Assembly: GCA_947175385.1 (NCBI GenBank)
Contig: CAMWMN010000002.1
Coordinates: 1-57,355 of the forward strand
Direction of reading: 5' to 3'
Length of the DNA: 57,355 nucleotides
Source: an uncultured Clostridia bacterium
GTDB taxonomy: Bacteria > Bacillota > Clostridia > Oscillospirales > Ruminococcaceae
This document shows, in pieces, positions 9,059-57,136 of the stretch (within the stretch, counting starts at the first letter, position 1; each line of letters begins with the position of its first letter). The notes beneath the pieces were generated by a model. It did not search any database and was not told the origin of the DNA. It saw only the letters and a program-made list of their open reading frames with translations. The position numbers and the translations under genes were made by a program.

Positions 9059-9172
9059 TGCAAATCCGAAACCGCGCAGATGAAATCCGCAAAGCGGATT
9101 TCATCTGCGCTTGCTAAGCGACCCGCAACACCACTTCGTGGTGTTGCGCGCCGCTTGCATTTCGGATTTGCA
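9059..9172 (-). repeat. Branched palindromic element, copy A (upstream of glgP)
   Basis: The outer stem is a perfect 13-bp inverted repeat, TGCAAATCCGAAA (9059-9071) with its complement at 9160-9172. Inside are a perfect 17-bp hairpin with a 3-nt loop (9074-9110) and a second hairpin (9125-9147, GCAACACCAC core) extended by AAGCG/CGCTT. In the reading direction of glgP the order is outer arm, GCAAGCGGCGCG hairpin, long hairpin, outer arm, then 22 nt with AATAAGGAG before the start codon. The same order is seen in the other six copies in this window. Confidence 0.85.
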
Positions 9173-9375
9173 TTAATCGCCGGTAGGTTGCTTTGGATTT
9201 TAGCGTGCCAAACTCGTGCCACTCCACGTTACGCGTGATTAATTAATTTGCACGAGCCGCCAAAAGGTTGTTGGGGGTTATAACGCGCCGGAATTGCAAT
9301 CCGATAGGTTGCTTTGAGATTGCACGCTCCTAAATTTCACCCCAAACGGCGGAGCGGAGTTATAACCCGAATAAC
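9173..9375 (-). repeat. Companion repeat modules upstream of copy A
   Basis: On the minus strand this stretch holds about three loosely repeated units: GCGTTATAACCCCCAACAAC, a second near GCGTGCAATCTCAAAGCAAC, and a third near GCTAAAATCCAAAGCAAC. Each has a CAA-AACCT-like part and ends in a TTGCAAT or TGCAAAT stretch. Similar units precede copies C, G and H. It lies inside the predicted glgP leader. Confidence 0.5.
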
Positions 9376-9389
9376 TGTCAACTGATTTT

Positions 9390-9418
9390 ATTGTACCATA
9401 TTTTTCCGACAAAATCAA
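9390..9418 (-). promoter_or_regulatory. Probable sigma-A promoter of glgP
   Basis: On the minus strand, TTGATT (9413-9418) and TACAAT (9390-9395) have a 17-bp spacer. A start near 9383 gives a leader of about 350 nt that contains the companion modules and element copy A. The rest of the 9037-9755 gap holds AT-rich sequence between this and the divergent pilus promoter. Confidence 0.65.
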
Positions 9419-9554
9419 GTGTGGAGTTGAAAATATGACAGTTTTTAACCGAAAAGATTAATTTTTGGTGAAATTGCACATAAGTTAGGCTAAAATTTCT
9501 ACATTCTAATTTCCATAAAATGGCAAAAAATTCAAAAAAGTTGCGAAAGAATAC

Positions 9555-9583
9555 TTGAAAAAAAAAACGGGTTATGTTATAAT
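9555..9583 (+). promoter_or_regulatory. Sigma-A promoter of the type IV pilus operon
   Basis: TTGAAA (9555-9560) and TATAAT (9578-9583) have a 17-bp spacer that includes an A-rich run. The predicted start near 9590 leaves a leader of about 165 nt before pilC. Confidence 0.8.
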
Positions 9584-9596
9584 TAAAGTAAATACA

Positions 9597-9738
9597 CAGC
9601 GGCTTATGGGCAAGTTATGCCCAAAAACACGCCAATTTCGCACGGCTCAGTAATACGCTTTACCGCAAGAAAGCGGAGACCGTGCGGCATCGGCTTGAGA
9701 TGATCCGCTGAAAAAAACGGCAAATTCGCGTTTGCCGT
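9597..9738 (+). promoter_or_regulatory. Structured leader of the pilus operon (candidate regulatory RNA)
   Basis: CAGCGG (9597-9602) pairs with CCGCTG (9705-9710) and encloses two arms: a hairpin TGGGC/GCCCA (9607-9623) and a longer arm GCACGG/CCGTGC (9640-9685) with an inner CGCTTT/AAAGCG stem (9656-9675). This makes a three-way junction. A separate perfect 8-bp hairpin, ACGGCAAA/TTTGCCGT (9717-9738), ends 5 nt before the GGAGG of pilC. I could not match it to c-di-GMP-I, c-di-GMP-II or other riboswitch consensus that I know. Confidence 0.45.
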
Positions 9739-9755
9739 GGAACGGAGGTTTTCAG

Positions 9756-10946
9756 GTGAATAAATTCTCTTATGTTGCCACCGACCCCAGCGGTAAAACG
9801 ATTCGTGGCTCGGAAATGGCGGAGGACTACAGAGACCTGCAGGTAAAACTGAGAGAACGAAAGCTGTATGTCACAAGTTACCGCGAATTGGGTCAGGGCG
9901 GAAACGATGTGAAGTACAAGTTCAAGGTCAAGGAGGTTTCCTTCATCTCGCGTCAGTTGGCGTCTATGTCTTCCGCGGGTCTGTCTCTTGTAAGGGCACT
10001 GTACATACTTCAGGAGCAGCAGGAAAACAAAAAGGCAAAGGCTGTTCTGCTGGACATTTACGAAGAGGTACAAAAAGGTAAGGCATTTTCGGACGTTCTC
10101 AGAGCCAAGCCCGGTGTCTTCCCGGATATGTTTGTCAGCATGGTTGCCGCGGGTGAGGCTTCGGGTACGTTGGACGAAATGTTCACTCGTCTGTCCGACC
10201 ACTTTGCAAACAGCAACAAGACCGCAAATAAAGTCAAGTCAGCGATGGTTTATCCCGTTATCCTGTTTGTATTGCTGATTGCGGTTATCATACTGCTGTT
10301 CGTTGCGGTTTTGCCATCGTTTGCGGGTATGATGCCGGAAGAAGATATGTCGGGGCTTTCAAAGGCACTGCTCGCCTTTTCGGATTCGCTGGTTAACCAA
10401 TGGTATGTTTACGTCATTGTAATCGTTGCGATTATTGTGGTTTTTATGATGCTTATGAAAACACCCAAGACGCGTATAAAAATGGACGAATACCTGTTGA
10501 AAATTCCCAAAGTTGGAAAGCTTGTTGCGATCGTTTATACCGGCACATTCGCAAGAAATATGTCCAACCTTTATGGGGCGGGCTTGCAGATGGTTGAATG
10601 TATCGAAAAATCTATTTCGGTGGTCAACAATATGTATGTAAGAAAACGTTTTGAAGAAGTCGTAGATTCGATAAAGCTCGGTGAGGGAATGTCGAACTCC
10701 ATCGAAAAAACGGGAATATTTGAGGGTATGTTTACCTCAATTATCTACGTCGGCGAGGAATCGGGTACTTTGGATACGATTCTGCGCAAGGCAGCGGAAT
10801 ATTACGAGGAAGAGGCGGACAGCGCGATTGGCAAGCTGGTTAGTATGATGGAGCCGTTAATGATTATCATCATGGGTATCGCGATTGGCTTCTTCCTTGC
10901 GGGTATGTTCCCGTTGCTGTATGGCGGAATGATGAACATCGCATAA
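9756..10946 (+). CDS. pilC: Type IV pilus inner-membrane platform protein PilC
   Basis: PilC is the membrane platform on which PilB and PilT act. The product is 396 aa, the usual size, with two GspF domains: the first has FISRQLASMSSAGLSL and GEASGTLDEMF, the second has FARNMSNLYGAGLQMVECI and GEESGTLDTIL. Three hydrophobic segments are visible near 165-190, 215-235 and 368-390. The start is the GTG at 9756, with GGAGG 7 nt before it; an upstream TTG at 9732 has no ribosome site. It is the first gene of the pilus operon; 143 nt with a 9-bp hairpin separate it from the pilM-pilN fusion. Confidence 0.95.
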   Translation: MNKFSYVATDPSGKTIRGSEMAEDYRDLQVKLRERKLYVTSYRELGQGGNDVKYKFKVKEVSFISRQLASMSSAGLSLVRALYILQEQQENKKAKAVLLDIYEEVQKGKAFSDVLRAKPGVFPDMFVSMVAAGEASGTLDEMFTRLSDHFANSNKTANKVKSAMVYPVILFVLLIAVIILLFVAVLPSFAGMMPEEDMSGLSKALLAFSDSLVNQWYVYVIVIVAIIVVFMMLMKTPKTRIKMDEYLLKIPKVGKLVAIVYTGTFARNMSNLYGAGLQMVECIEKSISVVNNMYVRKRFEEVVDSIKLGEGMSNSIEKTGIFEGMFTSIIYVGEESGTLDTILRKAAEYYEEEADSAIGKLVSMMEPLMIIIMGIAIGFFLAGMFPLLYGGMMNIA

Positions 10947-10979
10947 CAGACTGCGGTTCTCAGGAAAATTCAGAACGCC

Positions 10980-11010
10980 GCTCTCCGTGGCTACGAATTA
11001 TACGGAGAGC
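10980..11010 (+). other. Intercistronic hairpin between pilC and pilM-pilN
   Basis: GCTCTCCGT and ACGGAGAGC form a perfect 9-bp stem with a 13-nt loop. There is no T-run after it, so a processing or partial-attenuation stem is more likely than a terminator. Confidence 0.5.
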
Positions 11011-11089
11011 AAAACAAACCGTGCGGACGCGGCTTTACACAGGAAATCCCCCGTTTGCGGTTTGAAAATAAAAACTATGAGGTGAATTT

Positions 11090-12736
11090 ATGCTTTCTAT
11101 TGATATTACCGACAGACAAATAAAGCTTGTCAGAGGTGTACACAGCGGCAATAAAATCAAGATTCAGGACGCTGATATGCGTGAGCTTACACTTGGTATG
11201 GTTACCAACGGATTTATTACCGATGTTCCGATGGTGGCTTCTGAGCTGAACGACATCATCAAGTCTAGGGACATCAAGGAGAAGGAGGCTGTCGTTTCGA
11301 TCACCTCCAGCAACATTGTGTATAAGGAATTGACTGTCGCAAAGCCCAAGAGTATGAAAAACACCGCGATTATCGAGGCTATGATTCAGTCGGAAATGAA
11401 CGTTTCCACGGATTATAACATATCCTTTACTATCGCGGGAGAAACCGAGGACGGCGAGCACAATAAGATGCTTAAGGTCATGGCGGCGGCTTGTCCTCAG
11501 AGATTGGTTGACGGCTATGTAAGACTGTTTCAGCACATCGGGCTTTCGCTTAAGGCTGTTAATATCTCGAACAACTCCATTACACGGCTTATTACAAACA
11601 CCCCGAAGCTCTCCGACAGAATGCCGATTCTGCTTATCCAGATCGACAAGAGCTTTTTGAATATGAATCTGTATGAGGACAATCGTCTGGCGTTCTCGCG
11701 GTATTCCAACATCGACCCCGCAGACTACGATGACGCACCCGATTATGTTACCCACGCGGTTTATGACAATCTGTTCCGTATGATTCAGTTCATTCGCAGC
11801 AGAAAGAATGCACGCGGACTTCAGGAGATTCTGTTCTATGGCGAAATCGACAGCTTTATGGAGATTTCAAACGCCATAGCACAATTCAATATCTCATCGA
11901 ATATGCTTTCTATGCCGAGCAATATTCAGGCATCAGTGCAGTTCGACTTCTCGAAATTCGCGAACGCTATCGGCGCGCTGTATCAGCGTAATAAGGAAAC
12001 CGACCACATCAACCTGCTTGAGGCGACATCGGCGAAGGCTTCCAAAGGCTCGGATAAGTTTTTGTTGGGGCTGGTGGGCATTATGGCGGCTTCTGCGGCG
12101 GTTGTCGGCGGAGCGGTAGCTGTCTTTAGTATAATCAACAACAACTACATAAACAAGGCTCAAAAGCTGGAAGCTGACATCAAGGCGCTTGAGCCGGCTC
12201 TGGCGATCGTTGACGCGCGTACTACAATGCTTGAGGGCTTTAACAACTACAATAACACGATCGAATCGGTTAAGAACCTCTTTAACTATACCCCGAAGAT
12301 TACCGGTCAAGTATTTGACAAGCTGCGCGAACCGCTTGATAATGACAAAAGCAAGCTTTTGACTGGGGATCAGGAGCTTGACATAGAGTCCATAATTATT
12401 GAGGGGAATGAGGTTGTTGTAACTTACAGGGGCTGCTCAAACGGCGATCCCTCACCTGTTCCGGCTAATCTTGTCAGATATATGAACGAGAAAGTACTGA
12501 ATAAGTACAATGAGCCGTATTTCGAGAACATACAATACAGCGGCTTCACCAAGTTGAACGCAAGCGACTATGGCGTATACGCGATGCTTTCTTCAGATGG
12601 CAAAGTTTACGACACAATGTTCTCGTTCAGTATCACAATGACGCTGCCAATGGGCAATGATGAGGAGCACGCAAACCTCAACCAAGGAGAGGCTGATGAC
12701 AGTGCAGATAATAATACTTTGGGGGTGACTGAATAA
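11090..12736 (+). CDS. PilM-PilN fusion, type IV pilus alignment complex
   Basis: In most bacteria PilM (cytosolic, actin-like) and PilN (single-pass membrane) are separate partners that bridge the motor to the pilus. Here one 548-aa protein has both. Residues 1-315 resemble PilM: a start typical of the fold (SIDITDRQIKLV), SITSSNIVYKEL, and a Glu/Asp-rich middle. A hydrophobic segment at about 320-350 is followed by a coiled region starting NKAQKLEADIKALE, and then a PilN-like outer domain to about 520. The tail is acidic and Asn-rich. ATG has GAGGTGA upstream. The stop overlaps the ATG of the pilO-like gene by 1 nt, implying translational coupling. Confidence 0.8.
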   Translation: MLSIDITDRQIKLVRGVHSGNKIKIQDADMRELTLGMVTNGFITDVPMVASELNDIIKSRDIKEKEAVVSITSSNIVYKELTVAKPKSMKNTAIIEAMIQSEMNVSTDYNISFTIAGETEDGEHNKMLKVMAAACPQRLVDGYVRLFQHIGLSLKAVNISNNSITRLITNTPKLSDRMPILLIQIDKSFLNMNLYEDNRLAFSRYSNIDPADYDDAPDYVTHAVYDNLFRMIQFIRSRKNARGLQEILFYGEIDSFMEISNAIAQFNISSNMLSMPSNIQASVQFDFSKFANAIGALYQRNKETDHINLLEATSAKASKGSDKFLLGLVGIMAASAAVVGGAVAVFSIINNNYINKAQKLEADIKALEPALAIVDARTTMLEGFNNYNNTIESVKNLFNYTPKITGQVFDKLREPLDNDKSKLLTGDQELDIESIIIEGNEVVVTYRGCSNGDPSPVPANLVRYMNEKVLNKYNEPYFENIQYSGFTKLNASDYGVYAMLSSDGKVYDTMFSFSITMTLPMGNDEEHANLNQGEADDSADNNTLGVTE

Positions 12737-13722
12737 TGAAGTTAAGTAAGCAGGAACGCATTGGACTTATGATTATTATGGCGGTGGTTATTATTGCGTT
12801 GGGCGCGTTTTTGATGGTAAAGCCCAAGATAGAGGAAATGAACCGCAACAAGGAAACAATGGAAACCAAGCAGAAAGAATTTGACGAGAAAAAGGCCAAA
12901 GCCGATACCAAGAGTTCATTGAGGACGCAGATTGAGGCTGCTTATGAAAAGGGCGAGGACACAGCGGATATGTTCTTTTCGGAGATGGACGGATATGAGG
13001 TTGACGATATGTTCAGAGAATTTCTCGAGAACAGAGAGTACACCAAGCCCGATGCCAATAAGCCGGAGGAGCAATCCAAAATCCTGATTGAAGAGTTGAA
13101 AATCGGCAATCTTGACACAGAAACACTTTCGCCCTCGTTCCTGGAGATTCGTCCCATAACGTATCCGCTTAAGCAATTCGCAACACAGGGCGGTGTGACG
13201 CTCTCCAAGGAGGAGCAGGCAGAACAGCTCAGAAAGGCGGCTCTGGCGGCTGCGCTCGGCGGAGACCAAACCATCGGCGCGACTTCTATCTCGTTCACCG
13301 CTAAGGCGCTCTCCAACGATGAGCTTATCAAATTCGCGGACGAGATCAACAACTTTGTCCGTAAGGAGAATGGAAATGTTGTACGAAAGGCGATGAAAAC
13401 ACAGAATATCGAGCTTACTTATAATGATATTACAAGAAAGTACGATGAAATGATTGAAGATATGCTTAAAGAAGCCGAGGCTGATGGCAAGGCTGCGTTT
13501 GAGCGTGATTTTCATGTTTCGTTAAGCGGCAGTGGTTCTTCGGGTTCAAACCTTTTGACACCTACACCCGATGCCGACAATAACAACAATAATAACAAGA
13601 GCAATGTATCGGATTATCTGTGTTCGTGGGAGAATACACTGACGCTTTACAGTGTTGAGCGTATGCAGAATCCCAAGCCTATTCTTGACGCGCAGGACGG
13701 CATTGTTTCGTCTGAAGAGTGA
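12736..13722 (+). CDS. PilO-like type IV pilus alignment protein
   Basis: The product is 328 aa. It has a short cytosolic N-terminus, one membrane helix (about 9-28), a charged coiled coil (about 30-75), then a mostly alpha/beta outer region. A low-complexity DADNNNNNNKSNV linker comes near residue 280. This layout and its place directly after the PilM-PilN fusion match PilO, the partner of PilN, although sequence likeness is weak and it is longer than a usual PilO (about 200 aa). It is coupled to the preceding gene by a 1-nt overlap. Confidence 0.7.
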   Translation: MKLSKQERIGLMIIMAVVIIALGAFLMVKPKIEEMNRNKETMETKQKEFDEKKAKADTKSSLRTQIEAAYEKGEDTADMFFSEMDGYEVDDMFREFLENREYTKPDANKPEEQSKILIEELKIGNLDTETLSPSFLEIRPITYPLKQFATQGGVTLSKEEQAEQLRKAALAAALGGDQTIGATSISFTAKALSNDELIKFADEINNFVRKENGNVVRKAMKTQNIELTYNDITRKYDEMIEDMLKEAEADGKAAFERDFHVSLSGSGSSGSNLLTPTPDADNNNNNNKSNVSDYLCSWENTLTLYSVERMQNPKPILDAQDGIVSSEE

Positions 13723-13755
13723 TCTGCACATCTACTGACTTGAAAGGAGGATCTT

Positions 13756-21262: not shown

Positions 21263-21285
21263 AATTAAAAATAAGGAGAAATGAC

Positions 21286-27716: not shown

Positions 27717-29912
27717 ATGAGAATTACAAATTCTACCATTTTACGCGGATATAACCGCGATTTGAACCGCATACTAAGTCTTAAAAACGCGACGGAGCAT
27801 CGAATTACTACCAACAGACGCTTCTCTCGCGCTTCGGAGTCTCCGTTGGCGGCGGCTAAGGCGCTTACCGTGCGTAAGTCGCTTTACTATAACGAGCAGT
27901 ACACCGAGAACCTCAAGACTGCCAACGAGTTCTACACCGAGGCGGAAACTTCCCTGCTTCAGGTATCCGAGAAGATGGCGCAAATCAGCGAAACGATTGT
28001 CGCGGCTTGCAACACCACCAAGGATATCGTAGACTACAATATCTACGCGCAGCAGTTGGAAACCAGTGCGCGTGAGCTTTGCGCGATTTTCAACACCGAT
28101 TCCGCAGGGCGTACCATTTTCGGCGGCGAGAGCAACGATTCGATGCCGTTCGCGATTCTGGACGACTCTTCGGGAAGCGCTGCTACGGTTACATATCACG
28201 GAATCCCGGTGAATGCGATGAGCGATTACAGGGAATTCCCCTACTCGGCGAACGTCAATCTCGACATCGGACTGGGAATGGTTACCAACCAGAGCACTCA
28301 CGAAATCGATGACGCATCGGTTCTGCGTATTTCGTTCAACGGAGCAAAGGTTTCGGGCTGCGGCGCGGAATACGGCGTGGCAGATATCGACCTTTCGAGC
28401 GTTCAGAAGAACAGGACTTACAGCTTAGATGTATACGCGGGCAACGTCAAGAAAACGATTAATTTCGTGTGCAGCGGCGAAACCAATGCCGAAAAAGTGG
28501 CTCAGATAAATGCAGAGCTGGACAAGGAGTTTGCCAAGACAAAGGCTTACGGTGAACCTATTCCGCATATGGACGAACAGGGTGTGATTTATCTTGCGGA
28601 TTACGATGACGGCAACTTCACACCCGTTGAGAATGGCATTTGCAGCGTGGTAAACAACGAATACGCAAAGCGCACCAGTAAGGTGACTGTGGATAACGAT
28701 TCGGGATATACCAACAAGTTTAAGGTGAATGTTGAATCCTTGACTGAGGGGCAGACCTACACGCTTGATGTTACCGTGGGCGATACGAAAAAGACCATCA
28801 GTTTTGTTGCGGCTGTGGAAAGCGATGCTTTGGAGCGCGACAAGCTGACGATTGAGAATATCCAGAGCGCGTTGAACGAAGCGTTCCCGGGCGAGGACGT
28901 TTCCATTTCCAAGTCGGGAATCACCAAGGGAATCATTTCCGCGGAGGGCAAAAACGTCAAGGTTCTGGTTCACGACCCTATGGGCGATGTCGCGAGAAAC
29001 ACCGTGAACATCAGCTCCACTTCGCAGGACAAGATTAACCTCAAGGCACTGAAGGACGGTGAAACATATAAATTCTGTGCGACAGTTAATGGTAAATCTG
29101 CAGATATAGAGTTTACGGCTGGCGCAGATGCGAACGTGACCGCAGCAAATATTAAGACAGCGCTGCAAGCAAACACCGCTTTCACAGGAATGACTTTTGA
29201 TGTTTCGACAAGCGGCGACAAGATTGGTACAATCGCTACGGGCGGAAATCCCGTTTCGATTGCGAAGACAAGTGATTCCAATTCCGTTTCTGTATCGAGC
29301 TTCCCTACCTACTCCATTGATGCAAACAGTGCTATTGATGGTGTGACATATAAGCTCAAGGTAATGTACGGCACCTCTGTAAGGGATATAGAATTTACGG
29401 GCGGCGCAGACAAGGACGAGACCATCGCGAATATCAACAAAGCTCTGGAGAACGCGTTCGGTACGGGTGCTCCGACTGTTGCGGATGATGGCAAGATTAC
29501 CGCGGGAGATACGGCAGTGGTTTTGTCCAACTCCGTTGACACGGAGAAATCGGTTGTCGAGCGCGAGAGAATCTACTCGAATAATTACATTCAGCTTACA
29601 TTGGACGCGGCGAGAGCGCTCCGCAATGGCGACATCGGCTACGCAAACGGCTGCCTTGACAGAATCGCCACAGCAAAGGAGAATCTGTTGGCGGAAATTG
29701 CGGATATGGGCTGCAACGAGGAATTTATTGATTTTAATCTCACGCGAATCACCACACGCTCCGAGAACCTCAGCGAGCGTCAGAACGACCTCGAAGTTGT
29801 GGACGCAAAGAAAGAAATCACTCTGTGGAAAACCTATGAGGCAATGTATAATGCTTGCTTGCAGATGTCAAGCTCGGTAGTTCCGAACAGCATTTTCAAT
29901 TATATAAAGTAA
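27717..29912 (+). CDS. flgL: Flagellar hook-associated protein 3 FlgL, oversized with four internal repeats
   Basis: FlgL links FlgK to the flagellin filament. The ends are typical: N-terminus MRITNSTILRGYNRDLNRI with the flagellin-like helical D0/D1 (1-150), and C-terminus from about 625 with SERQNDLEVVDAKKEI and MYNACLQMSSSVV. At 731 aa it is more than twice the usual length of about 300. The extra part (about 230-615) has four divergent repeats of 80-100 residues, each with TYxLxVxxGxxKKxIxFxxG followed by a helix like IxNINxALExAF. They resemble the flagellin IN motif and should form surface-exposed domains of the junction. It lies 22 nt behind element copy D. Confidence 0.9.
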   Translation: MRITNSTILRGYNRDLNRILSLKNATEHRITTNRRFSRASESPLAAAKALTVRKSLYYNEQYTENLKTANEFYTEAETSLLQVSEKMAQISETIVAACNTTKDIVDYNIYAQQLETSARELCAIFNTDSAGRTIFGGESNDSMPFAILDDSSGSAATVTYHGIPVNAMSDYREFPYSANVNLDIGLGMVTNQSTHEIDDASVLRISFNGAKVSGCGAEYGVADIDLSSVQKNRTYSLDVYAGNVKKTINFVCSGETNAEKVAQINAELDKEFAKTKAYGEPIPHMDEQGVIYLADYDDGNFTPVENGICSVVNNEYAKRTSKVTVDNDSGYTNKFKVNVESLTEGQTYTLDVTVGDTKKTISFVAAVESDALERDKLTIENIQSALNEAFPGEDVSISKSGITKGIISAEGKNVKVLVHDPMGDVARNTVNISSTSQDKINLKALKDGETYKFCATVNGKSADIEFTAGADANVTAANIKTALQANTAFTGMTFDVSTSGDKIGTIATGGNPVSIAKTSDSNSVSVSSFPTYSIDANSAIDGVTYKLKVMYGTSVRDIEFTGGADKDETIANINKALENAFGTGAPTVADDGKITAGDTAVVLSNSVDTEKSVVERERIYSNNYIQLTLDAARALRNGDIGYANGCLDRIATAKENLLAEIADMGCNEEFIDFNLTRITTRSENLSERQNDLEVVDAKKEITLWKTYEAMYNACLQMSSSVVPNSIFNYIK

Positions 29913-34155: not shown

Positions 34156-34196
34156 GGCAACACTATAATTTATAGCAACGTTCGTGAGTGAAGCGA

Positions 34197-34294
34197 AAAT
34201 TCAAAACCCAAGCGGGGCGCAACACCGTGAAACGGTGTTGCGGCTCGCTTAGCGAACACAGACGAGCTTCGCTCATCTGTGTGGTTTTGAATTT
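34197..34294 (+). repeat. Branched palindromic element, copy E (fliS-flgN gap)
   Basis: The outer stem is a perfect 12-bp repeat, AAATTCAAAACC (34197-34208) with GGTTTTGAATTT (34283-34294). The first arm is AAGCGGGGC, the perfect stem GCAACACCG/CGGTGTTGC, and GCTCGCTTAGC. The second arm is ACACAGACGAGC/GCTCATCTGTGT with one mismatch and a 3-nt loop. Then 22 nt with AGATAAGGGGGG lead to the next start codon. The outer-stem bases differ from the other copies, but pairing is kept. Confidence 0.85.
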
Positions 34295-34316
34295 GCTTTT
34301 AGATAAGGGGGGGAAT

Positions 34317-34802
34317 ATGGCTGAGATTTTTGGCTGTGAAAAAGCGTCGGAGATTATTACGCGAATTATCGAAACGCTTCAGGAATACGAAAAGCAAACC
34401 GACAGTATGATTAATGCCGAGCTTGAGATTGTTCAGCAGGGGCTGATTGCCAGAAATGAGCTTATTGACACCCTTGAAGAGCTGAAAGATGATTTGGAAT
34501 CGGTGGTGGCTTGCGAGCTGCCCGAGGAGCAGACGCTGCTTAGGGCTTTAATCAATGGGAGCTATGTTTCTGTGCCGTTGGACGAGGCGCACAAGAAGCT
34601 GCAGCTGCTCCAAAAGACTATGGCAGTTGCCAAGCAGCGGATTCTCGATAAGGATAAAGTTGTTTCCAATCAGTTTAAGGACCGCCACGTTGATTCCCGC
34701 CGCGAACTGGAGCAGCTTAAACAGACCAAGCAGAAAATCGGCTACTACAATAGCGCGGTTGTCGGCAAGGCAACGGGTCAGTCGTTCAACAGAAATTCAT
34801 AA
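34317..34802 (+). CDS. FlgN/FliT-like flagellar chaperone
   Basis: The 161-aa product starts MAEIFGCEKASEII and is helical throughout, with a coiled middle and a polar tail (GQSFNRNS). It resembles FlgN-type chaperones and lies at the end of the flagellar operon after fliS, where FliT or FlgN homologues often sit. The ATG at 34317 has AAGGGGGG 4-9 nt upstream; longer in-frame starts would run through repeat copy E. The terminator at 34810 follows directly. Confidence 0.7.
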   Translation: MAEIFGCEKASEIITRIIETLQEYEKQTDSMINAELEIVQQGLIARNELIDTLEELKDDLESVVACELPEEQTLLRALINGSYVSVPLDEAHKKLQLLQKTMAVAKQRILDKDKVVSNQFKDRHVDSRRELEQLKQTKQKIGYYNSAVVGKATGQSFNRNS

Positions 34803-41123: not shown

Positions 41124-41516
41124 TTATTTTTTGCGTTTGTTCATCTGCTTTGAGATGAACGCCTTGTTCTGAACCGGCTTTCCAACAAGCGGCGCGTCGC
41201 CGGGTCTTTTCGCGGGAGCAGAAGTCATCTGAATCTTTCCGTCAAATGCCGCGATATACGTTTCTGCGATATTGAGCTGTTTCGGCAGCGAATCCGTGCG
41301 GCGGCAATACTCGATAACCTTGTTGAACTCCGCGCGGGATTCCTCGACCCGACCGAGATTCGCCAAAAGCTCACCCAATACACAGGTAAACTGAATAGCG
41401 AAATTCTCGTTATCCTTCGCGTTCTCCTCCGCGATTGCCTCGTTAAGCTCCCTTACCGCGTTGTCGTAACTCTCAAGATTGATAAACTGGATTGCCATAT
41501 CAAAATGAATGTTCAT
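41124..41516 (-). CDS. Small TPR-like protein
   Basis: The product is up to 130 aa. Residues 1-90 form paired helices with tetratricopeptide character (AIQFINLESYDNAVRELNEA, then LGELLANLGRVEESRAEFNK). A basic, Pro-rich tail ends FISKQMNKRKK. It probably mediates protein contacts; partners are unknown. Two starts are possible: ATG at 41516, and ATG at 41498 (MAIQF). Neither has a good ribosome site. The second lies 25 nt from repeat copy F, close to the 21-23 nt in the six other copies, so it may be the true start. It is the first gene of a promoter-operator-led operon with dCMP deaminase and rsmA. Confidence 0.75.
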   Translation of the reverse strand: MNIHFDMAIQFINLESYDNAVRELNEAIAEENAKDNENFAIQFTCVLGELLANLGRVEESRAEFNKVIEYCRRTDSLPKQLNIAETYIAAFDGKIQMTSAPAKRPGDAPLVGKPVQNKAFISKQMNKRKK

Positions 41517-41523
41517 TTTAATA

Positions 41524-41633
41524 GCAAATCCGAAAGCGCACAGATGAAATCCGCAAAGCGGATTTCATCTGTGCTTGCTTAGCGCCACGGTTTACGCTAC
41601 GCGTGCATCGCGCCGCTCGCATTTCGAATTTGC
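41524..41633 (-). repeat. Branched palindromic element, copy F (upstream of the TPR gene)
   Basis: In the transcript strand the outer stem is GCAAATTCGAAA with TTTCGGATTTGC (41524-41535), 12 bp including one G-U pair. The first arm starts GCGAGCGGCGCG and is less regular than in other copies; the second is a perfect 17-bp hairpin GCACAGATGAAATCCGC with a 3-nt loop, nearly the same as in copy A. The spacer after it (TATTAAAATGAAC) keeps the ATTAAAAT part but has lost AAGGAG. Confidence 0.75.
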
Positions 41634-41696
41634 ACTTCACCCCTTTTCGTTTATTTTAATTATTGTGTTCCGGGACTTCACCCCAGTTACTTTGTC

Positions 41697-51663: not shown

Positions 51664-51821
51664 CTTTAATTCCTTTCTCCGATACAGCTAACACACATCT
51701 ACAAAACCGAACTACGAGAAAACACTTTAATATAAATATAAGCCTTATCTCTTCTTTTTCATCTCGCTATCGGCAAAACGAAAAAGAGCCACATACAGTC
51801 CGAAAAAGGTTAGCTTAATTT

Positions 51822-51850
51822 ATTATAAATCTAAAAATTAATTTTGTCAA
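51822..51850 (-). promoter_or_regulatory. Sigma-A promoter of the zinc-ribbon gene
   Basis: On the minus strand, TTGACA (51845-51850) and TATAAT (51822-51827) are exact consensus with a 17-bp spacer. It leaves a leader of about 150 nt, in which I see no clear structure. Confidence 0.85.
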
Positions 51851-51924
51851 TATGCTAGTTGTACGAATTTAACAAGAAATTTTTATGTACTTTGTGCAAT
51901 AATACCAGACAATATATAAATTTG

Positions 51925-51956
51925 CGGTTCTCCCCGCTGTACAGCAAGGAGAACCG
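51925..51956 (-). terminator. Terminator-like stem after the flavoprotein gene
   Basis: CGGTTCTCC and GGAGAACCG form a 9-bp stem enclosing a short GCTGTACAGC palindrome, followed on the minus strand by CAAATTTAT. The T-run is weak. Confidence 0.55.
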
Positions 51957-51978
51957 TAAACCAGTCTGAAATAAAGTC

Positions 51979-52521
51979 TCATATTTTATCCGCAAGCTCT
52001 GCTGCTTGTTTGCAGCCATCGGTTTTTTCAATATCGCCCACGTTCAGCACACCGGGAATCAGGACTTCTCCCGCCATCTCCCATTTAAGAAGTGCCGCCG
52101 ACCGTTCAATGGGGATACGCACGCCGTCCAGAACCGACATATCGTGCTCCTCGCAGCAAGCAATCAGAGCACATTTCTTGCCTGCGATGTCCTTGCCGCC
52201 AACGACCAGCGAGAACAGCTTGTCGATAACACCCTTAATCTGCGCGGGGATAGAGTACCAGTAGACTGGCATCGTGAAAACGACAACGTCCGCTTCCAGA
52301 ATGCTCGGCGCTAACAGATTGAAATCGTCATCAAACGAGCAAGCCTTGCCCGATTTGTAACAGGTTTCGCACGCGTGACAGCCGCCAACATTTTTCAATG
52401 CCGCGTTAAACCTCGTAATGGTATTGCCGTTCTTCTCCGCCGCCGCGATAAATGCGTCCGTCATAGCGAAGCTGTTTCCGTTCTTGCGCGGGCTTCCGGT
52501 AATTACAACAATTTTGCTCAT
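51979..52521 (-). CDS. NADPH-dependent FMN reductase / iron-sulfur flavoprotein-like
   Basis: The 180-aa product has the flavodoxin-like FMN loop in GSPRKNGNSF near the N-terminus, and a short cysteine cluster (CHACETC, then C) at about 48-60, as in the iron-sulfur flavoprotein group and related oxidoreductases. PVYWYSIPAQIKGVIDK is typical of the family. The likely job is reduction of small molecules or stress response; the substrate is unknown. The start at 52521 has AAAGGAG upstream. It diverges from an HxlR-type regulator through overlapping promoters, so it is probably under that regulator. Confidence 0.88.
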   Translation of the reverse strand: MSKIVVITGSPRKNGNSFAMTDAFIAAAEKNGNTITRFNAALKNVGGCHACETCYKSGKACSFDDDFNLLAPSILEADVVVFTMPVYWYSIPAQIKGVIDKLFSLVVGGKDIAGKKCALIACCEEHDMSVLDGVRIPIERSAALLKWEMAGEVLIPGVLNVGDIEKTDGCKQAAELADKI

Positions 52522-52541
52522 AGACTCCTTTCGATATCCGC

Positions 52542-52570
52542 TTGACATTTACGGCTTATTATGGTATAAT
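52542..52570 (+). promoter_or_regulatory. Sigma-A promoter of the HxlR-type gene
   Basis: TTGACA (52542-52547) and TATAAT (52565-52570), exact consensus, 17-bp spacer. Its -10 box overlaps the -10 box of the divergent flavoprotein promoter by 2 bp. Confidence 0.85.
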
Positions 52571-52597
52571 TATAACACAAATGATTGCAAAATGCAA
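52569..52597 (-). promoter_or_regulatory. Sigma-A promoter of the flavoprotein gene
   Basis: On the minus strand, TTGCAT (52592-52597) and TATAAT (52569-52574) with a 17-bp spacer. The shared TATAATTATA centre at 52565-52574 is itself a palindrome, so one bound protein could block both promoters. Confidence 0.8.
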
Positions 52598-52641
52598 GTA
52601 CGCACCTTCAGGTGATATACTTACCAAAAGGAGAGTGTAAA

Positions 52642-52989
52642 ATGGACAACAAAGAGAAATATGAGAGCTGCATATCAGAGGCACACCTCACCGAAACGGG
52701 CTTCAGCTACACATTGTCGCTGATAAACGGAAAATACAAAATGACGATACTGTATACATTGATGTGCTTTGGAGTGGTTCGCTTCAACGAAATGAAAAGG
52801 TATATCGGAGAAATTTCCTACAAGACATTAAGCTCGACGTTGAAAGAGCTTGAATCCGACCAACTGATAAACCGCAAGGAATACCCGCAGGTGCCGCCAA
52901 AGGTGGAGTACAGTCTTACCGAAAGAGGTAAAACGCTTATCCCGATTCTGGATTCAATGTGCGATTGGGGAGAGAAAAACCGATTGTGA
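52642..52989 (+). CDS. HxlR-family transcriptional regulator
   Basis: The 115-aa winged-helix protein has the HxlR pattern: LINGKYKMTILYTLM (helix 2), RFNEMKRYIGEISYKTLSSTLKELESDQLI (recognition part) and the wing YPQVPPKVEYSLTERGK. Cysteines near the N-terminus (Cys9), in the core (near 48) and near the C-terminus (near 108) could sense redox or electrophile stress, as in some relatives. The ATG at 52642 has AAAGGAGAG upstream. Its head-to-head position suggests control of the flavoprotein gene and of itself. Confidence 0.93.
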   Translation: MDNKEKYESCISEAHLTETGFSYTLSLINGKYKMTILYTLMCFGVVRFNEMKRYIGEISYKTLSSTLKELESDQLINRKEYPQVPPKVEYSLTERGKTLIPILDSMCDWGEKNRL

Positions 52990-52995
52990 CCAACC

Positions 52996-53029
52996 AAGGC
53001 AACACCGCACAAAGCTGAAGTGTTGCCTT
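52996..53029 (+). terminator. Terminator after the HxlR gene
   Basis: AAGGCAACAC and GTGTTGCCTT form a perfect 10-bp stem; a weak AATACATT follows. Confidence 0.65.
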
Positions 53030-53046
53030 AATACATTATCAAAAAG

Positions 53047-53074
53047 TTGTCCCCCGATTTTACTCGGGGGACAA
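53047..53074. terminator. Terminator after the G5/3D gene
   Basis: TTGTCCCCCGA and TCGGGGGACAA form an 11-bp stem. On the minus strand it is followed by CTTTTTG, so it serves mainly the 53084-54148 gene. Confidence 0.85.
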
Positions 53075-53083
53075 ACCTTATAA

Positions 53084-54148
53084 TCAGCCGTTGCCTTCCG
53101 ACAACACATAAATGTCTACGTAATGAACTCCCCAATGGCAGGAATCCGCGTAGCTGCCCATAAACAGGTCAATCGTGGTTCTGCCGTCCATCAGTCCCAG
53201 ACCCGTATCGGCGGCGATTGCGTAGCCGTAAACCGTGCCGTCCGGGGAAACAATGTAAAGCTCGCTTCCGTACGGGATCACGTTGGGATTAACAGCTACC
53301 GTGCCGACTACCGCGTAGCGTCCGCTGGCGGTTTTCGCGCCGGCGCGCGCACTGTACGCAGTGGACTTGCCCGAGATCACACGCGTGTAGTTCTCGGGAA
53401 TGCCGTTCACCAACTTCAGTTGGGTAGGGTCTTCCATTTTCGCATACGGAACATTGATTGCAGTGCCGCGTTCCACAACCTCGGTTACCGGCTGCTTGGA
53501 GATCGTTTCGGAGAGCTGCTCCGTTTCGGAGAGCTTGCCGTCAATGTAGGTTTCCTTGACCGTGACGGTGTGTTTTCCGTTTTCGCCCTCGGTGATGACC
53601 GTTTCATCACCGATTTTGCGGTTGGAGTTGTCGATATATTCCGTGTTGTACGGGATTTCGCTCTCTTCGGTTTTGGTTACGTATTTAACGCGTGTAACGT
53701 TGATTTCCATACCCGCTTTTACTCTGTCCTCGCGGTCGCAGTTCAGGCGGTCGTCCTCGCCAAGTGTGATTCCGGCATTTTCAAGAGCCTCGGCAACCGT
53801 GCCATCCGTTGCGGGAAAAGTATTCGTTTCACCGTCTGCGGTGACTGTGATGTCGAACGCGCGGTGGATAATGATGTGCTCGGAGTTGTTTTCATCCTTG
53901 GTGCAGCTTACACGGTCATTGATCCCCAACTCGTAATCCTCTGAACGCAGTATCGCGTAGATGTCGGTTTCGTTGGTCTTGATCTCGCGGGTAATGCCGT
54001 TATCGGTTACATACACGGTGTTTTTGAAATACAGCAAACCAGTAAGGGTTACCATCATCGCCAAAGCCGCCGCGAATATGCCGAGCTTTACGATTCTGCC
54101 CTTTAAGAGCATTCGGTTCATTTTAAGATTCACTATCTGTGGTTTCAT
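53084..54148 (-). CDS. Cell-wall protein with DUF348, G5 and 3D domains (YabE/Rpf-like)
   Basis: The 354-aa product has a membrane anchor or uncleaved signal (about 19-41), two ubiquitin-like DUF348 domains (about 45-135), a G5 domain (about 140-215) and a C-terminal 3D domain (about 260-354) with GKSTAYSARAG and AADTGLGLMDGRTTIDLF. The aspartates of the 3D site are kept. Such proteins cut or remodel peptidoglycan, as resuscitation-promoting-factor relatives with lytic transglycosylase-like folds. The start at 54148 has TGGAGG 6 nt upstream; an upstream in-frame ATG at 54193 has only a weak site. Confidence 0.9.
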   Translation of the reverse strand: MKPQIVNLKMNRMLLKGRIVKLGIFAAALAMMVTLTGLLYFKNTVYVTDNGITREIKTNETDIYAILRSEDYELGINDRVSCTKDENNSEHIIIHRAFDITVTADGETNTFPATDGTVAEALENAGITLGEDDRLNCDREDRVKAGMEINVTRVKYVTKTEESEIPYNTEYIDNSNRKIGDETVITEGENGKHTVTVKETYIDGKLSETEQLSETISKQPVTEVVERGTAINVPYAKMEDPTQLKLVNGIPENYTRVISGKSTAYSARAGAKTASGRYAVVGTVAVNPNVIPYGSELYIVSPDGTVYGYAIAADTGLGLMDGRTTIDLFMGSYADSCHWGVHYVDIYVLSEGNG

Positions 54149-54249
54149 AACGCCTCCATCAGTCAATTGTACATTGTCAATCGATTTCGCCATTTTCTTT
54201 TCTGTAACAAATTTGTTTCTATTAGTCCCTTCCGTTTGGGATTAATGCT

Positions 54250-54278
54250 ATTATAACGCTTTTTTTTGTAAATGTCAA
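54250..54278 (-). promoter_or_regulatory. Sigma-A promoter of the G5/3D gene
   Basis: On the minus strand, TTGACA (54273-54278) and TATAAT (54250-54255), exact consensus, 17-bp spacer. The 54279-54506 stretch upstream is AT-rich; apart from a doubled TTGTAACCTTTT I see nothing in it. Confidence 0.85.
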
Positions 54279-54506
54279 ACATAGCGAGAGTGTGGAATTT
54301 GTGCACTTTTCACAAAAATGATTTGTAACCTTTTTGTAACCTTTTGAAATTTGGATCAAAAATTGGAATATCCTGTAAATAATTTTTGATTTTGTGGTAA
54401 ATTTAACTAAATATCCGCATAATTACGCTTTTGTCATATTTGTATAAAAGTTTTACCAAAATCCGCAGTAAAATTGTGAAATATACCCGTAAGATATGTA
54501 CAAAAA

Positions 54507-54537
54507 ACGGCTTCCCTACAAAATGTAGGGAAGCCGT
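54507..54537 (-). terminator. Terminator after the first HPr-like gene
   Basis: ACGGCTTCCCTACA and TGTAGGGAAGCCGT form a perfect 14-bp stem with a 3-nt loop, ending on the minus strand in TTTTTTG. Confidence 0.92.
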
Positions 54538-54554
54538 CTTGTTTTTTCGATAAA

Positions 54555-54785
54555 TCAGTCTACGATGAAGTCCTTGATTTCATCAAGAAAATCGCCGCAG
54601 TCATCGCTGTGGATTCTCAGTTCGAGGTCCTTAGACAGGTCAAGGCTGAAGATACCCATGATCGACTTTGCGTCGATTGCGTATCTGCCGCTGATGATGT
54701 CTACATCATAGTCCACTCTCGTTACCAAAGCAACGAAATTCTTTACATCATCGATTGCGTTTATACGGATTTTTGCGTTTGTCAT
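54555..54785 (-). CDS. HPr-like protein without catalytic histidine (copy 1)
   Basis: The 76-aa product has the HPr fold pattern: SGRYAIDAKSIMGIFSLDL matches the regulatory-serine region, with Ser41 in the place of HPr Ser46. The N-terminal loop that should read GxHARPA with the phosphorylated His15 is replaced by AIDDVKNF. It therefore cannot pass phosphate in the sugar phosphotransferase chain as normal HPr does; a Crh-like regulatory role is possible. AAAGGAAG precedes the ATG. The paralogue lies 130 nt upstream. Confidence 0.85.
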   Translation of the reverse strand: MTNAKIRINAIDDVKNFVALVTRVDYDVDIISGRYAIDAKSIMGIFSLDLSKDLELRIHSDDCGDFLDEIKDFIVD

Positions 54786-54864
54786 AATAAATCTTCCTTT
54801 CGTTTGTGGGGTTCCCACTTTTTCCCAAGGCTGCCCGATTTGGACTGCCATACCTACTACTTAT

Positions 54865-54894
54865 AATTTACCACATTTATACCCCGTTTGTCAA
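54865..54894 (-). promoter_or_regulatory. Probable promoter of the first HPr-like gene
   Basis: On the minus strand, TTGACA (54889-54894) and TAAATT (54865-54870) with an 18-bp spacer. It overlaps the end of the paralogue region, so copy 1 may also be read from the upstream promoter. Confidence 0.55.
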
Positions 54895-54915
54895 GGGGCT
54901 TTTTGTAAAAATTTG

Positions 54916-55152
54916 TTAAGCGACAACAAATTTTTTCACATCATCAAGGAAATTTTCAGCGTCCTCGCCGTCCGAATGGACTTTCATTTCCAACGTTTTG
55001 CCCAAATCAAGACTGAATATCCCCATGATTGACTTTGCGTCCACCGAGTATCGTCCCGACTGCAAATCCACCTCAAATGTGTATCCGCAGACGATTCCCA
55101 CGAACTCCTTTACATCGCTGATTGAATCAAGCTTAATCCTATACTCTTTCAT
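54916..55152 (-). CDS. HPr-like protein without catalytic histidine (copy 2)
   Basis: The 78-aa product is a paralogue of copy 1: SGRYSVDAKSIMGIFSLDL with Ser41, and SISDVKEF where HPr has its His15 loop. Both share an acidic C-terminal helix (FLDDVKKFVV). AAGGGGG lies about 8 nt before ATG, inside the spacer that follows repeat copy G. The gene has a leader of about 300 nt, far longer than its own coding length, which hints at leader-based control. Confidence 0.85.
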   Translation of the reverse strand: MKEYRIKLDSISDVKEFVGIVCGYTFEVDLQSGRYSVDAKSIMGIFSLDLGKTLEMKVHSDGEDAENFLDDVKKFVVA

Positions 55153-55175
55153 AATTTAACCCCCTTATTTAGATA

Positions 55176-55273
55176 GCAAATTGCGAACCGTGCAGATGAG
55201 CGCAGCTCATCTGCACTAGCCGAGCATCGCGTCGCACCTGCGGTGCAACGCGCCACTCGCTTTCGCAATTTGC
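55176..55273 (-). repeat. Branched palindromic element, copy G (upstream of HPr-like copy 2)
   Basis: The outer stem is a perfect 12-bp repeat, GCAAATTGCGAA (55176-55187) and its complement at 55262-55273. In the transcript the first arm is GCGAGTGGCGCG with GCGTTGCACC/GGTGCGACGC (one G-U) and GATGCTCGGCTAG; the second is a perfect 12-bp hairpin GTGCAGATGAGC with a 3-nt loop. Then 23 nt with AATAAGGGGG lead to the start codon. Confidence 0.85.
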
Positions 55274-55420
55274 ATGAGCTACCAATATATTGTTGCGAGT
55301 TATAGCGTGCGAAACTCGCGCCCATGGCATTGCGCCACTGGTCGCCAGTATATTGTTGTAAGTTATAACGCGCTAAACTCGTACCGCCAATAGGTTGTTT
55401 TGAATTTGCACTGCACGCCT
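55274..55420 (-). repeat. Companion repeat modules upstream of copy G
   Basis: On the minus strand there are three units. Two are clear: GCGTTATAACTTACAACAAT followed by ATACTGG, and CGCTATAACTCGCAACAAT followed by ATATTGG. The third is looser, around AATTCAAAACAACCTATTGG. The last runs directly into the outer arm of copy G. Confidence 0.6.
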
Positions 55421-55465
55421 TAGGGTTGACGCTTCCGAAACAGTTCTATTCGTCCCCCTAGAAAT

Positions 55466-55494
55466 AATATAACAATATTTTGAAAAAATGTCAA
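55466..55494 (-). promoter_or_regulatory. Sigma-A promoter of HPr-like copy 2
   Basis: On the minus strand, TTGACA (55489-55494) and TATATT (55466-55471) with a 17-bp spacer. The start near 55459 puts the companion modules and copy G inside the leader. Confidence 0.75.
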
Positions 55495-55501
55495 TAGCAT
55501 A

Positions 55502-55530
55502 TTGCAAATTTCGTAATTTTAAGGTATAAT
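55502..55530 (+). promoter_or_regulatory. Sigma-A promoter of mtaB
   Basis: TTGCAA (55502-55507) and TATAAT (55525-55530) with a 17-bp spacer, back to back with the HPr-like promoter. The mtaB leader (about 55537-55633) contains AATTCGG, which can pair with CCGAATT over a long loop. Confidence 0.8.
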
Positions 55531-55633
55531 AGAGGGGTAAAGTAAATTCGGTTTGGTGAAATTGCATATATTCACTGCATAACAATTTGTAATATTTCCG
55601 GGATTTCGCCGAATTGTATAAAGAGGTGACGGT

Positions 55634-56914
55634 ATGACCTTTGAGGTTATAACGCTTGGATGTAAACTCAATTATTGCGAAAGCGCCGCGATTGAGAAAG
55701 CCTTTCTTGCGGACGGATTCACTAATCCCCGTGATGGTGAAAAAGCGGACGTATACATTATAAACTCCTGCGCGGTAACGGGCACGGCGGTTACTAAAGC
55801 GCGCCACGAGCTGTCGAAATGCCGCCGCGAGAATCCCGATTGTGTGGCTGTGCTGTGCGGGTGCTTTCCGCAGAGCTATCCCGAGGAGGCAGGGCTGAAA
55901 TCCAATGCGGATATCATTGTCGGAAACTCGGACAAAAGCCGACTTCCCGAGTTGGTGCGCGTGTATCTTCAAAACCGCGTAAAGACAGTCAAAATCTCCC
56001 CCCTGTCGCGGGAGTATGATTTAAGATCGGCTGTTCCCGATGAGGACAGAACCCGCGCGTTCATTAAAATCGAGGACGGCTGTGACCGTTTCTGCGCGTA
56101 TTGCATAATCCCCACGGCGCGCGGAAGAGTGCGCTCTCTGCCGCTTGATTTAATTACCGAACAGTCGGTTCAGTGCGTGGAGCATGGACACCGCGAGATT
56201 GTCCTTACGGGAATCAACCTCGGCTGTTACGGGCAGGATCTGGGATTGACGCTCGGCGACGCGGTAAAAGCCGCCGCGCGGTCGGGAGTGGAACGCGTGC
56301 GGTTAAGCTCTCTTGAGCCTGAGATGATTACCGATGAGGAAATCGAGAAGTTCCGCGCTGTTCCAACGCTCTGTCCGCATTTTCACCTGTCGCTCCAGTC
56401 GGGCAGCGATACGGTGCTGAAGCGTATGAACCGCAAGTACACCGCGCAGCAGTACCGCGAAACGGCGGACAAGCTCCGCGCGGCATTTCCGGGGTGTTCG
56501 ATCACCACCGACATTATTGTGGGATTCCCCAGCGAAACGGATCAGGAGTTCCTTGAAACGGTGGATTTCGCGCGGAAAATCGGGTTTGCGAAAATCCACG
56601 TGTTCCCGTATTCCATACGTAAGGGTACGGTTGCCGCGGAAATGCCGCAGCTGCCTCCGTCTGTCAAGACAGACCGCGTGCAGATGCTTACCGCCGCCGC
56701 CAAGGAACTCGAACAGAAGTTCTACGAGTCGCGGATCGGTACTGTTCACACGGTATTGATTGAGAAAGCGCAGTCCCCCGAGTATTCCCACGGATTTACT
56801 GAAAGTTATATTTCTGTCAGAATATACGGGGCGAATATTCCACGTCATACACTCGCAAAGGTTCAAGTCACGGGATACCGCGACAATTACTGCATAGGAC
56901 AGTTGACAGTGTAA
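55634..56914 (+). CDS. mtaB: tRNA t6A37 methylthiotransferase MtaB
   Basis: MtaB adds a methylthio group to t6A at position 37 of tRNAs. The 426-aa product has the N-terminal UPF0004 cluster cysteines (Cys10 in TLGCKLN, Cys46 in NSCAVT, Cys77 in LCGCF), and the radical SAM motif CDRFCAYC (Cys150, 154, 157). A C-terminal TRAM-like domain begins near 370. The TLGCKLNYCES start and VPDEDRTRAFIKIEDGC separate it from MiaB. AGAGGTGA precedes the ATG. Confidence 0.95.
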   Translation: MTFEVITLGCKLNYCESAAIEKAFLADGFTNPRDGEKADVYIINSCAVTGTAVTKARHELSKCRRENPDCVAVLCGCFPQSYPEEAGLKSNADIIVGNSDKSRLPELVRVYLQNRVKTVKISPLSREYDLRSAVPDEDRTRAFIKIEDGCDRFCAYCIIPTARGRVRSLPLDLITEQSVQCVEHGHREIVLTGINLGCYGQDLGLTLGDAVKAAARSGVERVRLSSLEPEMITDEEIEKFRAVPTLCPHFHLSLQSGSDTVLKRMNRKYTAQQYRETADKLRAAFPGCSITTDIIVGFPSETDQEFLETVDFARKIGFAKIHVFPYSIRKGTVAAEMPQLPPSVKTDRVQMLTAAAKELEQKFYESRIGTVHTVLIEKAQSPEYSHGFTESYISVRIYGANIPRHTLAKVQVTGYRDNYCIGQLTV

Positions 56915-56944
56915 AATTAAAATTTACGCTTTGGGACGTGGGTT

Positions 56945-57024
56945 TTGTGCGTTATAACCTAAAACAACATATTGATAACGCAGTTTAGCGCGTTATAACT
57001 CACATCAAGTTATCAGCGACTAGT
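56945..57024 (+). repeat. Companion repeat modules upstream of copy H
   Basis: Two units: GTGCGTTATAACCTAAAACA with ATATTGATAACGC, and GCGCGTTATAACTCACATCA with GTTATCAGCGACTAG, which runs into the outer arm of copy H. They share GCGTTATAACYY with the modules of copies A and G. Confidence 0.55.
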
Positions 57025-57136
57025 GCAAATTGCGAAAGCGAGCGGCGCGGCATACCGCGCAGCGGTGTGCCGTGTCGCTCAGCTAGCACGGACGAAAATT
57101 GCAAAGCAATTTTCGTCCGTGTGGTTCGCAATTTGC
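57025..57136 (+). repeat. Branched palindromic element, copy H (upstream of purL)
   Basis: The outer stem is a perfect 12-bp repeat, GCAAATTGCGAA (57025-57036) with its complement at 57125-57136, the same arms as copy G. The first arm is GCGAGCGGCGCG with GGCATACCG/CGGTGTGCC (one G-U) and GTCGCTCAGCTAG; the second is a perfect 16-bp hairpin CACGGACGAAAATTGC with a 3-nt loop. Then 21 nt with ATCAGGAGG lead to purL. Confidence 0.85.

Follow-up and report, generated by a model that had tools for sequence, protein, structure and literature searches.

REP/BIME sequences, REPINs with RAYT and IS200/IS605 elements are palindromes that fold as single strands and insert in an oriented manner beside a short target, without duplicating it, and mobile promoters are leader-side sequences held in common by unrelated genes. 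The repeat studied here occurs in seven copies (A and C to H) in a stretch of 57,355 nucleotides from an uncultured Clostridia bacterium (the window; contig CAMWMN010000002.1 of assembly GCA_947175385.1). It differs from mobile promoters in being structured and in touching the Shine-Dalgarno (SD) sequence of the gene that follows; copies A, F and G each lie downstream of a promoter recognized by eye, which reads TTGACA-N17-TATAAT upstream of F and TTGACA-N17-TATATT upstream of G.

According to a report on Streptococcus pneumoniae (PMC3049150), the BOX, RUP and SPRITE repeats are mostly shorter than 200 bp and present in 30-125 copies, and BOX is modular. Such small repeats are scattered between genes with a weak orientation bias; 60.8-63.3% lie on the leading strand, and they are enriched between convergent genes. 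They are predicted to fold when transcribed, some have been shown to be expressed, and for one S. pneumoniae repeat family no comparable empty site was found. Prokaryotic miniature inverted-repeat transposable elements (MITEs), including Correia elements, are small, non-autonomous and palindromic, and Correia elements lie predominantly immediately upstream of genes; the main text of the review from which this is taken does not contain the words Shine-Dalgarno or ribosome binding (PMC10969869). Compared by description with these repeats, the present elements differ from BOX, RUP and SPRITE in being nearly all co-directional with the next gene, in lying at the SD and in having several empty sites. 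They resemble MITEs in small size, palindromic sequence and empty sites, and differ in their single orientation, in having no clear target-site duplication and in having no known partner enzyme. BOX-like and MITE repeats are the closest kinds, from which the element is set apart by its locked orientation, its SD position and the exchange of its occupants. No SD-locked repeat family was found in the open literature, where coverage was thin and the negative is hence weak evidence.

We propose that the repeat is probably mobile without being autonomous: it would insert at translation-initiation regions, be exchanged there and fold as RNA in the leader. A more specific proposal is put forward tentatively, with slightly less than even confidence: a mobile RNA leader that homes to the SD region and regenerates its own target, the occupants turning over by means of undescribed machinery. 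If true, the host would have an exchangeable layer of structured 5' leaders at hundreds of genes.

Fold and covariation of the element

The element is a three-way junction of a 12-bp outer stem and two hairpins. Read in its own sense, the strands of the outer stem are GCAAATTnnnAA and TTnnnAATTTGC. The first hairpin has the form GCGAGCG...CGCTCaGC with a bulged A and is followed by a TAG-like linker, the second hairpin varies in length, and GG precedes the closing strand of the outer stem. The middle of the outer stem occurs in three main types, with both strands changing together. The window copies are about 97-114 bp long and closed by the outer stem, and so have the terminal inverted repeats and the length of less than about 500 bp by which MITEs are recognized.

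A preliminary description of the window had placed seven such elements there with a common architecture of outer stem, arm and second hairpin. All seven were recovered within 3 bases of those positions, and the architecture was confirmed. Copy D, described as lacking a clean second hairpin, is the weakest, with 45.1 bits in the element search model R1 compared with 87.4-143.9 for the other six. It had also been claimed that pairing is kept although the stem sequences differ, and this is borne out by covariation far above that of slid controls. In an alignment of 11 copies, 95.8% of 518 cells are paired and 22 of the 49 pairs have changed on both sides; six slid controls gave 32-45% paired and at most 5 both-side pairs, and shuffled controls were also far below the elements. 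Copies were likewise aligned from a sister species, Oscillospiraceae bacterium isolate Mgla_MAG_34-bin_10 (JAAVIC01, metagenome-assembled; here G026, with G000 for the window's genome), none of which had been used to build R1. There, 56 copies have 96.5% of 2572 cells paired and both-side changes at 41 of 49 pairs, compared with 34-44% and 14-24 pairs in slid controls, in an alignment that was fitted to the model and therefore leans towards it. Alignments that mixed sense and antisense matches were left out of the counts. In 238 copies that had been chosen beforehand for having 9 or more of the 12 pairs, the outer stems are about 97% Watson-Crick and seldom mix types.

Mismatches were counted in gapless hairpins, a procedure that prefers neither kind. 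On the sense strand, G-U exceeds C-A by 98:40 in the hairpins of 248 copies, by 44:14 in the 238 outer stems, and by 87:29 over 308 unique hairpin sequences from G000 and G026 (p = 6e-8). For the 50 new copies of a second sample alone, the hairpins gave 19:4 and the outer stems 12:7 with 25 others, the outer-stem counts being affected by inexact ends. The earlier opinion that the evidence for RNA over DNA is not one-sided was an effect of the small sample. No G-U excess is present in two other genomes of the genus, G031 (8:8) and G006 (1:2; 9:10 together), whose copies mostly belong to the class II described below. The asymmetry suggests that the strand that folds is the sense strand, either as RNA or as single-stranded DNA, and it would fit an RNA in leaders. 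The SD is unpaired with a mean of 0.63 in 166 filled leaders, compared with 0.54 when the body is shuffled and 0.51 in 202 element-free genes. As in cis-regulatory RNAs, a conserved, covarying fold is found in a predicted leader.

A nested palindrome (GACCGCC...GGCGGTC or similar) lies within the first hairpin of the L280 copy facing window E and of those at L107:454-651 and L145:7441-7638 (L-numbers are sequence stretches and the suffix is the position in the stretch). A similar one at L089:17564 is apparently within a gene.

Position and orientation before genes

Using R1, 58 non-overlapping copies were found in 453,764 bases of G000, from which about 315 copies are extrapolated for the 2.47-Mb genome, in agreement with the hundreds predicted from the window alone. 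This count retains weak matches down to 23.7 bits and excludes, by manual removal, the antisense twin matches and a single match to part of a hairpin (L084 8149-8189). With 428 called genes in the sample, roughly one gene in eight has a copy. At least 66 copies are present in 400 kb of G026, a biased density since the contigs were chosen as known holders of copies. Antisense twins are left out of this count, as are six weak matches of at most 29.4 bits (L104 3116, L097 6411, L106 11373, L114 18941, L096 4275 and L098 7561). The preliminary description had made its case depend on further copies in the rest of the genome and in relatives, and these were found in both.

The copies are co-directional with the next gene in 57 of 58 cases in G000 and in 65 of 66 in G026. 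A start caller biased towards SDs put the start codon 7-30 nt beyond the closing strand of the outer stem in 48 of the 58 and 48 of the 66 copies, with a mode of 20-23 nt. A second sample (800 kb) contained 71 matches, of which 61 are full-length, including already known copies, and 10 are partial and unplaced. All 60 full-length copies that have a downstream gene are co-directional with it, and the 61st lies at an edge. An SD-blind caller placed 35 of the 56 copies not followed by another at 17-30 nt from the start. Among the remaining 21, an SD and an ATG are visible by eye within 40 nt downstream in 12, and in four the tail ATTAAAAT runs directly into ATG.

YATTAAAAT, which links the stem to the SD, is part of the repeat, since it is the consensus in front of element genes but not in front of other genes; it ends at the SD and seldom at the ATG. 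The full consensus before element genes is GAATTTGCyATTAAAATAAGGAG. The strict tail pattern is present in 9 of 34 and 6 of 33 element genes; among other genes it is present in 2 of 59 and 0 of 34. With the SD-favouring caller, a strong SD precedes 34 of 39 element genes in G000 and 36 of 43 in G026, compared with 80 of 227 and 50 of 181 of the other genes, respectively. The preliminary description had called the elements intergenic. That term overlooks that all seven window copies read in the same direction as the gene that follows and stop at the SD of that gene or, in the case of copy F, at its called start codon. These copies and their genes are as follows.

9059..9172, minus strand: element A, 139.5 bits (R1); tail AAATTAAAATAAGGAG, then ATG
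6664-9036, minus strand: gene behind A, glycogen-phosphorylase-like, PF00343
21167..21263, plus strand: element C, 87.4 bits (R1); also in sister G026 with paired changes
21264..21285, plus strand: tail ATTAAAAATAAGGAG with SD, separating element C from the start codon
21286-22365, plus strand: gene behind C, PilT-like ATPase, PF00437
27594..27695, plus strand: element D, second hairpin degenerate
27717-29912, plus strand: gene behind D, flagellin-N-like; PF00669 slightly under the cut-off
34194..34296, plus strand: element E, 97.2 bits (R1)
34317-34802, plus strand: gene behind E, 161 aa; no Pfam match at 1e-4
41523..41634, minus strand: element F, 112 bits (R1); tail meets the called ATG without SD, distance 7 nt
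41124-41516, minus strand: gene behind F, TPR-like; TPR matches below the cut-off
55175..55274, minus strand: element G, 100.6 bits (R1)
54916-55152, minus strand: gene behind G, HPr-like, PF00381
57024..57137, plus strand: element H, 143.9 bits (R1), the top score of the window
from 57158, plus strand: gene behind H, extending past the window end
56981..57028, plus strand: upstream module adjoining H, nhmmer match (3-seed model); consensus GTTTAGCGCGTTATAACTCAAAGCAACTTATCGGCGACTAGTGCAA

A repeat that stops at the ribosome binding site of about one gene in eight, nearly always in the sense direction, demands either targeting to initiation regions or a strong common function. The downstream genes look mixed: 49 were listed, and the ten run against Pfam include phosphorylase, T2SSE/PilT, flagellin-like, HPr, pyruvate kinase, primase, acyltransferase and SPFH genes. 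Another explanation is that insertion occurs anywhere and only copies right before an SD or ATG survive. A few copies adjoin an ATG directly, with no SD in between (window F and copies in L277, L305, L301 and L274). They speak for this, and they also imply that what the sites have in common is the initiation region and not a single motif. However, single copies are rare in both samples between the promoter or upstream gene and the SD, where an insertion should be harmless, and the orientation is nearly absolute. We therefore regard untargeted insertion as improbable and infer that insertion is targeted, not filtered by selection.

Empty, filled and exchanged sites

Orthologous sites with and without an element were found in G000 and G026. 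In the clearest case, the filled site at L089:15367 reads CTGTTCGG, then TTAGTGCAAATT...CATTTAGAT, then AAATAAAAAAGGGG, and its empty counterpart in L278 reads CTGTTCGGAAAGAAAAAGGGG; the inserted copy has a shrunken first hairpin. Other empty/filled pairs are L294:17847/L097, L297:1601/L273, L301:10335/L096, L304:4845/L126 and L309:10142/L138, with further cases at L084|1250, L087|17633 and L091|17013. In other pairs the SD and start region are unchanged, and the difference is confined to the sequence upstream of AAGGAG. Between pilB and pilT, where window copy C lies, the gap containing the element is 227 nt in G000 and 297 nt in G026. A comparison covering 28 of the 40 other same-genus genomes with a pilT match showed a gap of 17-109 nt with a plain SD in 23, an unrelated gap of 143-162 nt in four, and one in which the upstream stop was not found. 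The four unrelated gaps (L246, L248, L254 and L257) share the blocks GGACAGCGGAA... and GCCGGAATA; the two tested (L246 and L257) have no Rfam match.

Two other kinds of insertion were noticed. One is MITE-like with ends of the type GGCAACACCGCACAATT...GTGCGGTGTTGCC and is present in one species only at L303:14050/L284, window:25104/L281 and L297:1601/L273. The other has CAGACTGTCGA(T/G)AAAC-like ends and is present in G026 and not in G000 at L293:15444/L289, L085:17692/L105 and L301:7530/L096, in two cases with a terminator-like hairpin alongside.

Occupancy was compared at 262 orthologous genes. Both species are occupied at 49, only G000 at 9, only G026 at 14 and neither at 190 (p = 5e-31), whereas about 14 shared sites are expected by chance from the occupancy margins. 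The comparison also accepts the tail pattern as occupied, and its 23 one-sided cases still contain missed copies (window F, L084|15590 and L305|19645) as well as sequences unlike elements (L301|9688, L303|10687 and L303|587). The occupants of shared sites usually differ: 41 of 45 bodies, weak and truncated copies included, are closer to a copy at another gene than to that of the orthologue. In the 40 full-length pairs, the identity is 0.695 for the body, compared with 0.651 for random pairs, and 0.846 for the SD region, compared with 0.529; for the gene starts the median is 93%. The SD region at these sites is inherited, with the bodies only slightly more similar than random pairs. These pairs are a natural experiment in which orthologues with nearly unchanged starts have had a structured leader swapped. 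At the pilT site the occupant has changed with pairing intact (GTAACAC/GTATTAC compared with GAAACAC/GTGTTTC). The suggestion that the fold is regenerated by the copying process holds in part, since a given gene in the sister species usually has another member of the family as its entire occupant.

Alongside 266 unique matches, tandem copies form 25 junctions. The stems stand just 11-14 nt apart in 14 of these junctions, a distance made up of the tail and 2-5 nt; such spacing is what insertion at an occupied SD would give. In the mechanism that we propose, an element of about 100-130 bp, approximately (TAG)TGCAAATT...AATTTGCYATTAAAAT and non-autonomous, would insert in one orientation at an initiation region, with its tail normally abutting the SD of the host gene. 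Insertion would leave the SD beside the new tail, so that the site could be hit again, and the tandem copies would then collapse by deletion between repeats, so that the occupant is exchanged and the site remains occupied. Transcription would make the element the final segment of the mRNA leader, and the RNA would fold to a compact three-way junction that keeps the SD fairly free. Transcription, selection on the RNA fold and the order of insertion before collapse are conjectural parts of this scheme, drawn from sequence comparison.

We also considered that the repeat may be a functional leader RNA first, a cis-acting regulatory or stabilizing module (for example a translation insulator, an RNase site or a site for a global RNA-binding protein) kept by selection at hundreds of genes and homogenized by gene conversion, with mobility secondary. 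The strict position before the SD, the co-occupancy between species far above chance, the G-U asymmetry and the more often unpaired SD all agree with such a role. Yet the downstream genes look mixed, 27 of 41 same-genus genomes have no match (E 0.01, strict filters), and the empty sites mostly retain a usable SD. Conversion tracts ending inside the element should also mix the outer-stem types, which are seldom mixed. We consider a primarily functional origin rather unlikely.

Several observations weigh against targeted insertion and exchange. The SD also differs in L304/L126, L301/L096 and L034/L109, so part of it may come with the element, and the start codon differs in L034/L109 and L309/L138. 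By eye, L089/L278 has no target-site duplication and L304/L126 has AAG on both sides; AAG is also kept after the older tail in 4 of the 25 tandem junctions, and the 5' end of the element is not sharp. At shared sites the body identity is low and yet exceeds that of random pairs (p = 0.013), and a few sites kept their occupant. The 40 nt upstream of the element at shared sites are intermediate in identity (0.652, compared with 0.547), which indicates upstream modules that are partly common. A transcription-linked mutation bias on the sense strand could add to the G-U excess. Lastly, searches for two enzyme families, Y1 and RVT_1, in drafts of 75-100% completeness for Y1 found no Y1_Tnp (PF01797) in G000, G026, G041, G031, G036 and G034, with one gene in G006, and no RVT_1 (PF00078) in G041, G031 and G006 (80-90% complete).

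RVT_1 gave a weak match in G000 and is present in G026, G034 and G036; neither Y1 transposase nor reverse transcriptase genes are related to copy number. The failure to find Y1 in six of the seven draft genomes searched separates the element from REP/BIME and REPIN-RAYT repeats, and an IS200/IS605-type partner was rejected on the same ground. A reverse-transcriptase partner was set aside because RVT_1 was not found in the copy-rich G041, G031 and G006, and this result also bears on a SINE-like retroposon. Such a retroposon would use the leader RNA as its template and anchor its 3' end at SDs by target-primed reverse transcription, and would have a constant 3' and a ragged 5' end. The near-constant 3' end and variable 5' joints of the empty/filled pairs fit such a retroposon, as does the sense-strand fold, but 14 of the 25 tandem junctions have a fairly constant 5' end, and retroposition appears very improbable. 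Recombination of the integron attC type, suggested by the oriented hairpins, was discounted on the ground that the units are without a gene; attC sites themselves were not searched for.

Distribution and related sequences

Within the genus, 14 of 41 genomes have matches at E 0.01 under strict filters. G000 and G026 have at least 84 each, followed by G041, G031 and G006 with 60, 50 and 25 (80, 62 and 29 under laxer filters), so that abundance varies strongly within the genus. In a scan of 297 genomes of the family from 126 genera, in which the best 11 candidates per genome were scored and copies could thus escape, only G000 rose above the threshold of E 1e-4. Single tail-pattern matches in Flavobacterium, Hahella and Methanococcoides were taken as chance, since R1 found nothing there (L129, L132 and L144). 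Carriage by phages or plasmids was rejected: a 201-base leader had no match among phage and plasmid records, and the exact tail pattern is absent from the viral contigs searched.

No named family had been recognized in the window, and none was found in Rfam. The window has no match at gathering score, and searching 10 loci at E up to 1 gave three matches, all below gathering score and to miRNA and lncRNA families. The element would be a folded leader class outside the coverage of Rfam.

Many copies are preceded by one or more modules of about 42 nt with the consensus given above for the module adjoining H. Of 126 module matches, obtained with a model whose seeds were taken from next to copies, 108 precede a copy of the same sense by at most 400 nt; most of them touch the copy, and others often lie about 41 nt further up. 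A 14-aa repeat readable in one frame of the modules is taken as a probable coincidence.

A second, intergenic element class, class II (GAAATTTCAAAAATCAAGC...), many copies of which have no SD, makes up most of the copies retrieved from G031 and G006 (L176-L195 and L216-L226). Modules like ccgccaaaacaacgttatattcgag adjoin many class II copies, frequently at either end. Seven loci of the class II type, five of them from G031 or G006, were viewed in detail; some are antisense to their neighbours, and L218 is a leader.

A different folded leader, AAATTCAAAAAGTCTCAAAATT...GGAATGCT..., and a relative of it precede the gene at 13679 in L082 (G000) and the gene at 6483 in L147 (G026), with a similar tail and SD. 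This leader sits where the orthologue has an element, or itself adjoins the element family.

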